From Spirochaetales bacterium (GTDB lineage: Bacteria; Spirochaetota; Spirochaetia; Sphaerochaetales; Sphaerochaetaceae): DNA of 43,207 nt. This document shows, in pieces, positions 22,605 through 27,060 of the stretch. Location of the stretch: the NCBI GenBank assembly GCA_028722305.1, contig JAQYHB010000043.1, positions 1-43,207 of the forward strand, given 5' to 3'. The position numbers were made by a program, and so were the translations under genes. The first letter of the stretch is position 1. Each line of letters opens with the position of its first letter. The notes beneath the pieces were generated by a model. That model did not search any database. It was not told the DNA's origin and saw only the letters and a list, made by a program, of their open reading frames with translations.

Positions 22605-23327
22605 CTACCAGTTCGTTCCCAGGATCACGACTCCGTTGATCGCAATCAGCAGATAGACCAGCCGTTTGAAACTTTCCACGTGCAAACGGCTGAATAGGCG
22701 TATCCCAAGGAACGTCCCTACCGCCACGCCGACCAGACCGATTCCAAGTGAGGGGACCACATCGGAAGGAACCATTCCCTTGGCGATGCGCATCATTGCC
22801 GCGGCGAAGGCTGTCACCACGAAGCTGAACTGGGTCGAGGCCAGATAGGACTCCTTGTTTCCCAACGAGGGGAGCAGGTACATCGCCGTCGTCGGCCCGC
22901 CGATGCCGAAGAATCCATTGCTCACTCCGGTCACTGCGCCCAAGGCGACACCCTTTGCCGGAGTCGGATGAATCGTGATATTTCCTACAAAGAAGAAATA
23001 GGCGGCCAAGACAATCAGCATGCAACCGAGAGCGAGCATCATTGCCCTGTTGTCGATGGACGCGCTGAGCGCGGTGATAGTCGTGCCTACCAGCACGTTG
23101 GCGATGGCGAAAGGCAGGACCACCTTCCAATTGATAGACCGGTGGTAGCGGATTGCCAGCACGGTCGAGTTGCACATGCTCATCAACAGCGAGAAGGCTA
23201 CCGCCGTCCCGTACGGGAAAAGGTACGGCAGGAACGCCATGCAGAAGACACCGAAGCCAAAGCCGATCGCGCTCTGCAGGAAAGCCCCTATCGCGATAAT
23301 CAGAAATACCAGGAACAAATGCATCAT
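22605..23327 (-). CDS. TSUP family permease (sulfite exporter TauE/SafE type)
   Basis: 240 aa, about eight hydrophobic helices. Two repeats carry the family's glycine-rich helix starts: IIAIGAFLQSAIGFGFGVF near the N-terminus and LGAVTGVSNGFFGIGGP in the second half. These inner-membrane proteins move sulfur-containing or organic anions; the substrate cannot be told from sequence. Its start overlaps the end of the Rsm22-type gene by four bases (ATGA), so it is translationally coupled to it. Confidence 0.88.
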   Translation of the reverse strand: MMHLFLVFLIIAIGAFLQSAIGFGFGVFCMAFLPYLFPYGTAVAFSLLMSMCNSTVLAIRYHRSINWKVVLPFAIANVLVGTTITALSASIDNRAMMLALGCMLIVLAAYFFFVGNITIHPTPAKGVALGAVTGVSNGFFGIGGPTTAMYLLPSLGNKESYLASTQFSFVVTAFAAAMMRIAKGMVPSDVVPSLGIGLVGVAVGTFLGIRLFSRLHVESFKRLVYLLIAINGVVILGTNW

Positions 23328-24499
23328 CCATCCACCTTGGAAAGGATTTCCAAACGGGAGTCAGAGCCGAAACCCAGCCCCTCGCCACGCACCTGCACAT
23401 TGCGGACCAACACCTCGTCATACCGCTTCAAACCGAAAAACCCCTCCTCTTTGGCATGCGGATCTCCCTTTGGGGCAGAGAGGGAAAAACGCTTTTCGCC
23501 ATCGCAGAACAGAAACCGTACCCTCCCCGACTTGTTCATCATCGCCTCGCTGACGACCAAGGCGTGGACATCCCCGCCCACAAAGGCAGGAGCAGGTTCC
23601 CGCCCTTCTTTCTGGAAAAAGAAATAGGTCATCTTCACGGACTCGCGGTCCAGATTGGCCGCCTTCGCAAGACTCGCCATCGGCTCTCCCGGCTTCCAGG
23701 CAACCTCGCAGTGGCAGGTATGCCCTTCCCCTGCCAGCAATGCCGGACAAGGGCAGTCGGCCATGCAAGGCCCGAGCAGGTGCCATCCGCTTTCCACCAG
23801 CTTGTCACGCAACTTCATCAGGTTCCTGCTTGTCAGAAGCAACGCCGGCTCGCAGAGGAAACAGACTCCACCTTCTGTCAATTTGGTTCCGACCCGCTCC
23901 AAAAGCTGGTAGCGCTTCTCGATTTGATCTCCGTCGTCCTTCCACAGTTCGTTCAACGTGTGGCTCATCAACACCACGTCCCAAGGACCGGAAAGGTCGT
24001 CCAGCCTCTCCTGCATCAGATCCTTCCGGATTTTTGTCACGCGGACATGGCTAGTGGGCAACATCGCCTCAGCCAGCTTCATCGCCTTGTTGCTGTAATC
24101 GACCAGTGTCACTTCGATAGTGCACTGATGGGGCAGCAAATCGACGAGTGCGGCCGAAGCAGGCGCCGGTCCACAACCCAAATCCAATACCCTAACCACA
24201 TCTTTCATTCCGAGTTGGGAAAGCAATATTGGGTTTGAAGAAAACGCAAGCGATACCTGCAGGTAACTGACCGGCCAGTAGTAGAGCAGGTAGGAGTTGA
24301 GCAAGGGCTGCTCGTTCATGTATCCGGCGCCCGCAAGACTTCGTCCGCCTGTCAGCCCTCGCTGCAGTTTGAGCAGGCAATCCCCCGCCCGCTGCAATTC
24401 TTTCGGAGTCAAAAGCGTGCTTGACCCGCCACCCCGGTACAGGGAAACCAATTTGGAGATATGGCCCCGCAGGAGCCGCTCGCTTCGTTCGATACTCAT
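23324..24499 (-). CDS. Rsm22/METTL17-like methyltransferase with cysteine cluster
   Basis: 391 aa. SAM-binding motif RVLDLGCGPAPASAALVDL near residue 105, then VTLVDYSNKAMKLAEAML and VVLMSHTLNELW, in the order seen in Rsm22 (PF09243). The cysteine-rich block GPCMADCPCPALLAGEGHTC followed by HCEVAW is characteristic of the family and, in mitochondrial METTL17, belongs to an iron-sulfur site. Family members act in assembly or modification of the small ribosomal subunit. No ribosome site is visible; TATACT (24511-24506) ends 6 bases before the ATG at 24499, suggesting a leaderless transcript. Leads a two-gene operon with the TSUP permease. Confidence 0.85.
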   Translation of the reverse strand: MSIERSERLLRGHISKLVSLYRGGGSSTLLTPKELQRAGDCLLKLQRGLTGGRSLAGAGYMNEQPLLNSYLLYYWPVSYLQVSLAFSSNPILLSQLGMKDVVRVLDLGCGPAPASAALVDLLPHQCTIEVTLVDYSNKAMKLAEAMLPTSHVRVTKIRKDLMQERLDDLSGPWDVVLMSHTLNELWKDDGDQIEKRYQLLERVGTKLTEGGVCFLCEPALLLTSRNLMKLRDKLVESGWHLLGPCMADCPCPALLAGEGHTCHCEVAWKPGEPMASLAKAANLDRESVKMTYFFFQKEGREPAPAFVGGDVHALVVSEAMMNKSGRVRFLFCDGEKRFSLSAPKGDPHAKEEGFFGLKRYDEVLVRNVQVRGEGLGFGSDSRLEILSKVDG

Positions 24500-24535: not shown

Positions 24536-24564
24536 TTGACGGGAGAGCCGATTCAGATTTGAAT
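24536..24564 (+). promoter_or_regulatory. predicted promoter of the ThyX-like gene
   Basis: TTGACG (24536-24541), 17 bases and TTGAAT (24559-24564). Transcription would start close to the ATG at 24572, 7 bases after the -10. This argues against the ATG at 24563, which lies inside the -10. Confidence 0.45.
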
Positions 24565-24571
24565 GTGGGAC

Positions 24572-25219
24572 ATGCTTACACTCGCAAGAACCTCAGTCAT
24601 GAACTTCGAGAACGCCATGCGTGGCGCTCGCAATCCTTTGAACAGCTGGGACCGGATGGACAGCCATGTCGAAAGCGACGGGACCTTCGTTTTCGGTCCC
24701 AATGACCTGAACCTGGCCCGGCGTCTGACCCATGCGGGCAGCGACCACCGCAAGTTCATCCGGCAGATCTTTGTCTCAGTCGACATCACCGCCCCCATCT
24801 ACTGGTGGAAGGAATACGACACCTACAAGGTCGGCACGGTCGCCAACTCGACCAGCACGATGCACAAGATCCAGTCCAAACGATTCTCCCGCTCGGACTT
24901 CTCGCTGGACCATATGCGTCCGGAGATGCTGGAGCTCTTCGACCAGGTGATCGCTGGTCTCGAGACGGCACGAAAGAACTTTCTTGCCACCAAGGACAAG
25001 GGCTGGTGGTACACGATGATCCAGATGCTGCCGGAGAGCTACAACCAGACCCGCACCTGCACGATGAACTACGAGAACCTGGTCAACCAGTACCACTCCC
25101 GCTGCAACCACAAGCTGGAGGAATGGCATACCTATTGCGACTGGGCCAGCAAGCTCCCCTACTTCAAGGAGCTCTTCCTCGACCCATTCCCGGAACCGGA
25201 ATCCAAACAACCATCCTGA
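24572..25219 (+). CDS. ThyX-like protein lacking the RHR signature (unknown function)
   Basis: 215 aa from ATG 24572; ATG 24599 (MNFENAMRG) is an equally plausible start. The segment HRKFIRQIFVSVDITAPIYW followed by WKEYDTYKVGTVANSTST has the shape of the FAD-dependent thymidylate synthase core (ThyX: strand, then AP[IF]-x5-7-RHR-x-S-x-N-E-x-S). But the RHR position reads TYK, and the Ser/Asn/Glu signature that follows RHR in ThyX is not kept in recognisable form. The rest (GWWYTMIQMLPESYNQTRTC, NYENLVNQYHSR) also fits ThyX's later helices. It might be an inactive or repurposed relative. I could not confirm the homology. Ends at a terminator. Confidence 0.5.
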   Translation: MLTLARTSVMNFENAMRGARNPLNSWDRMDSHVESDGTFVFGPNDLNLARRLTHAGSDHRKFIRQIFVSVDITAPIYWWKEYDTYKVGTVANSTSTMHKIQSKRFSRSDFSLDHMRPEMLELFDQVIAGLETARKNFLATKDKGWWYTMIQMLPESYNQTRTCTMNYENLVNQYHSRCNHKLEEWHTYCDWASKLPYFKELFLDPFPEPESKQPS

Positions 25220-25302: not shown

Positions 25303-27060
25303 ATGCCAAACAAGTCTCAGTATCTCAGAAGGTTCCTTCCCTACTACCGGAAGTACCTCGGTATGTTCCTGCTCGACACGCTTTGCGCGGCGTTGACCAC
25401 AAGCGGCGACCTTGTCCTGCCCATGCTGGTCCGGTTTTTGACCCAGGCCGGCATGCAGAACCGCTCTGCCTTGACCGTCCAGCTGGTGCTCCGCATCGGG
25501 CTGCTCTACATAGGGCTCCGCATCATAGACGCTCTTGCCCGCTACTACATGGCAAGCGTCGGCCATATCATGGGCGCCTCTATGGAGCGGGACATGCGCA
25601 GCGAGCTTTTCGACCACCTTGAGACCTTATCCTTCAACTTCTTCGACAACACCAAAATCGGGCAGATCATGGCGCGCATGACCCACGACCTGTTCGACGT
25701 GACCGAGTTCGCCCACCACGGACCGGAGAACGTCTTCATCGCCCTCTTCGAGTTCGTCGTCGCCTTCATCGTCCTGGGCCACATCAACCTGTCGCTGACC
25801 ATCATCATCTTCGCCCTGCTTCCGGTCATGACCGCCATCCTACTGGTCTTCAACTTCCGGCTGAGGATCATGTTCCGCAAGCAGCGGGTGCAGACAGGGG
25901 AAATCAACGCCACGGTCGAGGACAGCCTGCTAGGCATCCGGGTGGTCAAGTCCTTCGCCAACGAGGATCTGGAGAAGCAGAAGTTCGAATCGGGCAACAA
26001 GGCTTACCTCGACCTGCAGAAACAGGGCTATTACCTGATGGGGCAGTACCAGGCGTTGCTGAAGCTGCTTGACGGGGTCATGTACATCGCCATCGTCGTC
26101 ATCGGTTCCCTGTATATGATCCACGGACGAATCCAAGCCTCGGATCTGGTCGCCTACGTGCTCTACCTGAACACCCTGCTGGCGGCCATCCACCTGCTGG
26201 TGCAGTTCACCGAACAGTTTTTACGCGGTATCACAGGTATCGAGCGTTTCTTCCAGATCATCGACACCCCGAGCGACATCACCGACAGCCCGGAGGCGAG
26301 AAAGCTGGGAGACGACGTCAAAGGCGACATCCGCTTCAATCACGTGAGCTTCTCCTACACCGACGACGGAACCAAGGTGCTGGAGGGCATCGATCTCCAT
26401 ATCCGTCCGGGAGAGAACGTCGCCTTGGTCGGTCCCTCGGGGGGCGGCAAGACGACCCTCTGCAACCTGATTCCCCGTTTCTACGACGTGACCAAAGGCT
26501 CGATCGCCATCGACGGAAAGGATATCAAGACCCTCACGCTGAAGAGTCTGAGGAGACACATCGGCTTCGTCCAGCAGGACGTCTATCTGTTCAGCGGTAC
26601 CGTCTTCGAGAATATCGCCTACGGCAAGAAGGGAGCGACCCGCCAAGAGGTCATCCTCGCCGCCAAGGAGGCGGGAGCCCACGACTTCATCATGGGCCTG
26701 AAGGACGGCTACGACACCTACGTCGGAGAACGCGGCGTCAAGCTTTCCGGCGGACAGAAGCAGCGCATCTCCATCGCCCGGGTCTTTCTGAAGAACCCCC
26801 CGATCCTGATTCTGGACGAGGCGACCAGCGCACTGGACAACGAGAGCGAACGCCTGGTGCAGGCATCCCTGGAACGCCTTGCCAAAGGACGCACCACGCT
26901 GACCATCGCCCACCGTCTGACCACGATCCGCAACGTCGACAGGATCATGGTGCTGACCGACAAAGGCATCGAGGAGGAAGGCACCCACCAGGAGCTGGTC
27001 CAGAAAAACGGCATCTACGCCCACCTCTACCAGACCTACTGCGACTTCGTCGGACAATAA
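25303..27060 (+). CDS. ABC exporter half-transporter (MsbA/multidrug type)
   Basis: 585 aa fused permease-ATPase that would act as a dimer in the inner membrane. The first ~320 residues are a six-helix type-I exporter domain (FFDNTKIGQIMARMTHDLFD, the usual coupling-helix region). The ATPase has Walker A VGPSGGGKTTLCNLI, the Q-loop FVQQDVYLFSG, signature LSGGQKQRISIARVFL, Walker B ILILDEATSALD and the H-loop IAHRLTT. Cargo may be lipid or drug; not decidable. TAGACT (25291-25296) ends 6 bases before the ATG and there is no ribosome site, so a leaderless transcript is likely. Confidence 0.92.
   Translation: MPNKSQYLRRFLPYYRKYLGMFLLDTLCAALTTSGDLVLPMLVRFLTQAGMQNRSALTVQLVLRIGLLYIGLRIIDALARYYMASVGHIMGASMERDMRSELFDHLETLSFNFFDNTKIGQIMARMTHDLFDVTEFAHHGPENVFIALFEFVVAFIVLGHINLSLTIIIFALLPVMTAILLVFNFRLRIMFRKQRVQTGEINATVEDSLLGIRVVKSFANEDLEKQKFESGNKAYLDLQKQGYYLMGQYQALLKLLDGVMYIAIVVIGSLYMIHGRIQASDLVAYVLYLNTLLAAIHLLVQFTEQFLRGITGIERFFQIIDTPSDITDSPEARKLGDDVKGDIRFNHVSFSYTDDGTKVLEGIDLHIRPGENVALVGPSGGGKTTLCNLIPRFYDVTKGSIAIDGKDIKTLTLKSLRRHIGFVQQDVYLFSGTVFENIAYGKKGATRQEVILAAKEAGAHDFIMGLKDGYDTYVGERGVKLSGGQKQRISIARVFLKNPPILILDEATSALDNESERLVQASLERLAKGRTTLTIAHRLTTIRNVDRIMVLTDKGIEEEGTHQELVQKNGIYAHLYQTYCDFVGQ

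Follow-up and report, generated by a model that had tools for sequence, protein, structure and literature searches.

The window, the whole stretch of 43,207 nucleotides that we analysed, is one entire contig of a 2.7-Mb Spirochaetales genome (95% complete, 56 contigs). On its forward strand, at 24572..25219, lies an open frame of 215 codons for a 215-amino-acid protein of PHROG 6721, a divergent ThyX-fold protein that we predict to be a thymidylate synthase; a second in-frame ATG is found at 24563. The divergent neighbour (23324..24499, reverse strand) encodes an Rsm22-like methyltransferase (PF09243, E 5.1e-13), and an ABC transporter with membrane and ATPase parts (PF00664, PF00005) follows downstream at 25303..27060 on the forward strand. 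Neither a DHFR nor a dTMP kinase gene adjoins the window copy, and no Rfam or tRNA match was found anywhere in the window.

We label the window's genome G000, and the two other genomes of its genus in our comparison G083 and G082. Compared by eye, near-identical versions of both neighbours are present in G083 (locus L003 for the methyltransferase). The idea that the window copy is pure phage cargo was rejected, both for these shared flanking chromosomal genes and for its placement inside the chromosomal Clostridia part of a quick tree. Of the changes that separate the family gene of G000 from that of G083, 26 are synonymous and 9 are not (dN/dS about 0.08), and the gene is under purifying selection between these two species.

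The window protein has no Pfam match at E ≤ 10, PF02511 (ThyX) and PF00303 (ThyA) included, and its single NCBIfam match (E 0.16) is below the cut-off. It is matched by PHROG 6721 ('unknown function') at E 1.8e-64, over profile positions 8-215 of 218. Relatives in annotated phage and plasmid records are, among the matches listed, all named hypothetical protein; the same name is given to a 64% identical relative on a 368-kb replicon of Monoglobus pectinilyticus. The family is also common in phages. Scanning genomes gave at least 592 relatives; judged by record title, the best 80 are mostly from Lachnospiraceae and other Clostridia, many of them from gut samples. Our literature search, made at title and abstract level with preprints and most subscription papers outside its scope, found no description of the PHROG 6721 family. 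The COG counts quoted in a 2018 review give ThyX in 43/49 Clostridia (PMC5954106), and may already take in some members of the family.

The quick tree holds 104 members, is rooted at the midpoint and leaves 38 of its 101 inner branches open. All 37 chromosomal rows group with the window's genus and four viral rows (support 91), with viral lineages around them. The window's genus branches with L022, a row labelled Lachnospira (support 88, without star), apart from a Treponemataceae/Spirochaetales pair. The chromosomal clade may derive from phage copies, and the gene may have passed between Clostridia and spirochaetes.

Fold and active-site positions

An AlphaFold model of the window protein, made with 98 relatives, has a mean pLDDT of 94.7 and a pTM of 0.88. 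When we searched the PDB with this model in Foldseek, all 50 matches listed were ThyX (best E 6.8e-8). A second structure aligner returned 47 ThyX or ThyX-like entries at Z 12.1-14.4, while the first unrelated fold reached Z 4.0, and the likeness to ThyX is therefore beyond chance. In the model, the ThyX fold spans the whole chain. The initial annotation had compared the protein with ThyX by eye, a comparison it would have given up had the fold not matched; both structure searches match it.

A PDB sequence search with the window protein gave no matches, and one with the family profile gave a single chance match (E 1.1). The PF02511 HMM search, suggested in the initial annotation as a check, has a divided outcome: it misses the window protein itself at E ≤ 10, but PF02511 is the commonest weak Pfam match among the relatives (16/98, best E 6.7e-5) and also weakly matches 4/18 members of a more diverse set (best E 1e-4). 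With hhalign, a first and narrower pair of family and ThyX profiles was not significant (E 0.18, probability 0.34%). A second try, with profiles broadened by divergent phage members and atypical ThyX, aligned 154 collinear columns at E 1.8e-4 (probability 48%). The segment DITAPIYWWKEYDTYKVGTVANSTSTMHK, which had been lined up by eye with the ThyX core, is present in the ORF and does align with ThyX. Judged from these profiles, the sequence link of the family to ThyX is weak but real.

The ThyX motif is RHR followed by a conserved serine. We paired active-site positions through the broadened hhalign alignment, using the ThyX of G082 as the reference, and counted conservation in 98 family members and 20 ThyX proteins. 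In G082 numbering, the ThyX residues H67, R92-H93-R94, S102, R104, Y105 and R200 are invariant in all 20; we take the equivalents in T. maritima to be H53, R78-H79-R80, S88, R90, Y91 and R174. H67 pairs with H59 of the window protein (codon 24746..24748, forward strand), which is H in 97/98 members. As the initial annotation had noted, RHR is missing: the codons at 24821..24829 (+), which pair with R92-H93-R94, encode T84-Y85-K86 (T and Y in 98/98 members, K in 97/98), and 97/98 members have TYK at these columns. Further on, S93-T-S95-T-M97-H98 (24848..24865, +; S93, S95, M97 and H98 in 98/98) replaces the ThyX loop that ends in S-x-R-Y. Here S95 pairs with S102 and so keeps the conserved serine after RHR, M97 pairs with R104 and H98 with Y105, and S-x-R-Y reads S-T-M-H in the window protein. 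The late arginine R200 pairs, in the collinear alignment, with R177 (25100..25102, +; R in 98/98).

Arg-78, Arg-80 and Arg-90 of T. maritima ThyX are described as contacting dUMP (PMC3498832), and their equivalents are not kept in the family. In another account of ThyX, dUMP is contacted by, among others, a conserved arginine late in the chain, and a tyrosine forms a lid above the atoms that react (PMC6514825). Set against the ThyX columns, conservation in the 98 members indicates that the family retains the serine and the late arginine and has its own fixed residues elsewhere. Five distant members (L006, L017, L018, L019 and L021) have RYH where the window protein has TYK, a possible intermediate.

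Losing the known ThyX-motif residues is what a dead or regulatory relative of ThyX might do, with thymidylate coming from salvage or an unrelated synthase, and a PDB title describes the ThyX of C. glutamicum as 'not required for thymidylate synthesis'. However, the residues that stand in for the ThyX motif vary hardly or not at all among the 98 members, purifying selection on the gene is strong, and the family is complementary with ThyA and ThyX in its distribution (next section). We regard this explanation as very improbable.

Altered motifs are also found among PF02511 proteins. In the Lachnospiraceae proteins L203-L207, L209 and L225, the RHR region reads YTH and is followed by a GG-P-RLQASTRY-like stretch, which by its sequence makes them a second altered-motif branch of ThyX. 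L185 and L208 form another atypical ThyX group (ITRHQNEVK...SLQYSNY), with R and H kept and the third position changed. L202 (213-1562, -, genome G337) encodes a 450-amino-acid protein of apparently two tandem ThyX units, as seen by eye, with RHR in the second and none in the first. Within our own family, L011 (1480-2817, -, genome G044) has an in-frame insertion between the active-site loop and the C-terminal half, giving a 446-amino-acid frame. Since one member of the alignment of L011 matches HNH_3 (E 3.6e-4), a homing-type element may sit inside this gene.

Thymidylate synthases in carrier genomes

The initial annotation raised the possibility that, should its genome have no thyA or thyX, this protein is the functional enzyme. 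In the window's genome we found no match to either PF02511 or PF00303 at E ≤ 10. G083, the other carrier of the family gene in the genus, likewise lacks ThyA and ThyX, and the non-carrier G082 has ThyX. With a 95% complete assembly, a thyX gene could have been missed in the window's genome, although G083 has the same pattern. The family gene may have displaced thyX in this genus.

Among 139 genomes of the window's GTDB family, ThyX occurs in 101 and ThyA in 27, with both present in G078. Eight of the 139 carry the family gene, and six of these eight, all from genus g11, also have ThyX; at the one g11 locus that we looked at (L005), the gene appears by eye to lie among phage-like replication genes. 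Both synthases are missing in 10/131 non-carriers, and in 4/72 when only high-quality genomes are counted (completeness of 90% or more, contamination of 5% or less; a figure obtained by subtraction from our tallies). Methanosarcina acetivorans, the sole PHROG 6721 match among 14 control genomes, also has ThyA.

The window's genome encodes, on contig C45 (L012 1129-2325, -), a 398-amino-acid protein with a thymidine kinase domain in its middle only (PF00265, E 5.9e-10). Its gene adjoins one that resembles, by eye, deoxyribose-phosphate aldolase. Thymidine salvage is therefore possible in this genome. Salvage does not, however, account for why the carriers in particular should miss ThyA and ThyX.

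Beyond the window's GTDB family, most of the carriers that we examined likewise have neither synthase. In a set of 200 Lachnospiraceae genomes (at least 90% completeness requested), the family gene occurs in 33, ThyX in 32 and ThyA in 147. Both synthases are missing from 29/33 carriers but only 5/167 non-carriers (Fisher p 1.4e-25, relatedness ignored), and the other four carriers do have ThyA or ThyX. These counts take in two doubtful carriers, G286 (E 2.7e-10, inside a 1790-amino-acid frame) and G215 (two split matches); leaving out G286 gives 28/32. Since only five non-carriers lack both, all but 5 of the 200 genomes have at least one of ThyA, ThyX and the family gene. These five (G298, G318, G341, G361 and G369) may be auxotrophs, may contain gaps, or may have yet another synthase.

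Our second set consists of 40 carrier genomes from the best 80 chromosomal loci, chosen by hand with a preference for long contigs and named species; it shares G159, G166 and G172 with the Lachnospiraceae set. Thirty-six of the 40 lack both synthases, three have ThyX and one has ThyA. The 36 include Lachnospiraceae, Oscillospiraceae, Erysipelotrichaceae and Spirochaetota, as labelled, and in Oscillospiraceae, Erysipelotrichaceae and two spirochaete lineages the pattern is seen in single or few genomes each.

Action on another pyrimidine, which the initial annotation had also raised, looks less likely in this light, since it would leave those carriers without a known dTMP synthase. The protein might methylate UMP in the manner of PolB, or hydroxymethylate dUMP or dCMP, chiefly to supply phage DNA, with the cells living on thymidine salvage. 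PolB is a UMP/dUMP methylase that matches the fold (Z 13.2), and both the frequency of the family in phages and the thymidine-kinase-domain protein of the window's genome fit such an account. Yet it leaves three things unexplained: the far more frequent absence of ThyA and ThyX in carriers than in non-carriers, the swap with ThyX inside one genus, and the chromosomal copies that adjoin DHFR and dTMP kinase genes. We consider it distinctly unlikely.

Neighbouring genes and folate reduction

At 15 of the best 80 chromosomal loci, the family gene has a DHFR gene beside it, always on the same strand; the spacing is within about 150 bases in 14 and 891 bases in one. This search was seeded with two Hungatella DHFR only and several loci are short, so the count may be low. 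No DHFR gene was found beside the family gene in 80 viral loci. We also assigned Pfam domains to the called neighbours at the 80 chromosomal loci, two of which have no called upstream gene and two no called downstream gene. The next downstream gene is DHFR in 9/78 and thymidylate kinase in 2/78 (L092 and L096); the DHFR figure is perhaps lower than 15/80 because genes that overlap the family gene could be skipped in this count.

The commonest neighbours in the Clostridia loci are a MobA-like NTP transferase upstream (19/78) and an Rce1-like protease downstream (15/78), with no obvious link to thymidylate. A link to dCMP deaminase was rejected: Pfam counted two, but by eye both (L059 and L064) resemble tRNA adenosine deaminase. 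In Hungatella effluvii (L183 4344-4976, -, and 9132-9962, +), the family gene lies between two DHFR genes and ThyA is about 4 kb away, perhaps a replacement in progress.

Among phage copies, L015 is near a deoxynucleotide kinase gene, and L016 is near genes for anaerobic ribonucleotide reductase and an NTP pyrophosphohydrolase. A scan of 150 neighbour proteins from 40 of the 80 viral loci found NrdD (3), the NrdG-type 4Fe-4S domain (4), pyrimidine 5'-nucleotidase (3), guanylate kinase (3) and MazG (3), the commonest being the primase-helicase domain D5_N (8).

Across whole genomes, FolA-type DHFR is matched in 21 of the 40 carriers (in G156 by a 40-residue fragment) and in none of the other 19; G000, G083 and G082 also gave no match. 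The DHFR signals are thus mixed, as an adjoining DHFR fits the release of dihydrofolate and the DHFR-less carriers fit the release of tetrahydrofolate.

The first of these signals would suit a thymidylate synthase that uses no flavin, in which methylene-tetrahydrofolate gives both carbon and hydride, dihydrofolate leaves and DHFR recycles it; this would be the chemistry of ThyA on the fold of ThyX. The replacement of RHR and of the loop R-Y throughout the 98 members agrees with such an enzyme, as do the 15 adjoining DHFR genes and the two that flank the gene in Hungatella effluvii. However, FolA-type DHFR is unmatched in 19/40 carriers and in both carriers of the window's genus, and the search found no DHFR at any of the 80 viral loci. 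DHFR has a further use in folate synthesis, and it is not the only kind of dihydrofolate reductase. We think the flavin-free synthase unlikely.

Predicted reaction and comparison with known systems

The window gene most probably encodes a divergent thymidylate synthase of the ThyX superfamily that would be the sole de novo source of dTMP in its genome. We put this reading, in which the activity is inferred, at a probability of about 0.8; the complementary distribution with ThyA and ThyX and the neighbouring genes at some loci lend dTMP synthase activity indirect support. The enzyme would convert dUMP and methylene-tetrahydrofolate to dTMP by reductive methylation on the ThyX scaffold, with the dUMP contacts presumably rebuilt around K86 and H98. 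Reduced flavin may act as the relay, and tetrahydrofolate would be released as in ThyX chemistry; the latter is suggested by the 19/40 carriers, and the window's genome, in which FolA-type DHFR is not matched. On the distribution of DHFR in carriers, we prefer this ThyX-like chemistry with reduced flavin, the flavin-free version being the alternative. The flavin-dependent version, taken by itself, is probable, though less secure than the assignment as a synthase. A further reading would make the family a third mechanistic class, with the ThyX fold but no flavin-relay site, free of FAD or using another cofactor, in which the TYK and STMH residues make dTMP and the enzyme is the sole dTMP source in many gut Clostridia and some spirochaetes. 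Taken as a whole, we find this doubtful.

Thymidylate synthesis is essential. According to a 2018 review, very few genomes have neither ThyA nor ThyX, and salvage accounts for these (PMC5954106). If our main reading is right, the name 'hypothetical protein' hides the synthase of many gut Clostridia, which would then be wrongly taken for thymidine auxotrophs. RHR, treated as the hallmark of ThyX, would be replaceable, and the enzyme would be a drug target unlike the human one.

PHROG 6721 shares nearly its whole length with the window protein. It is a group of phage proteins with no function assigned, whereas the window copy is chromosomal, at a locus common to G083. PolB (4p5b), the UMP/dUMP methylase of polyoxin synthesis, has the ThyX fold like the family, with 14% identity to the window protein, but is described as an enzyme of an antibiotic pathway (PMC5954106). 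ThyA (PF00303) has the same predicted reaction and role, and some family copies adjoin DHFR; it differs in that neither the window protein nor its genome is matched by PF00303, and in that the family has the ThyX fold.

The closest known system is ThyX/Thy1 itself (PF02511; T. maritima TM0449, H. pylori 3ah5 and M. tuberculosis 2af6), whose fold agrees with that of the window protein along the entire chain (rmsd 2.5-4.1 over 162-189 residues) at 11-19% identity. The histidine, the serine and the late arginine are common to both in collinear sequence, and the family takes the place of ThyX/ThyA in most carriers that we examined beyond the window's GTDB family. ThyX has RHR and the loop R-Y where the family has TYK and M-H, and its Pfam model misses the window protein. 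Unlike ThyX, the family is accompanied by DHFR in about half of the carrier genomes (21/40), and by an adjoining DHFR gene in 15/80 loci. By its fold the window protein belongs with ThyX, by motif and profile it does not, and in genomes the family takes over the role of ThyX.
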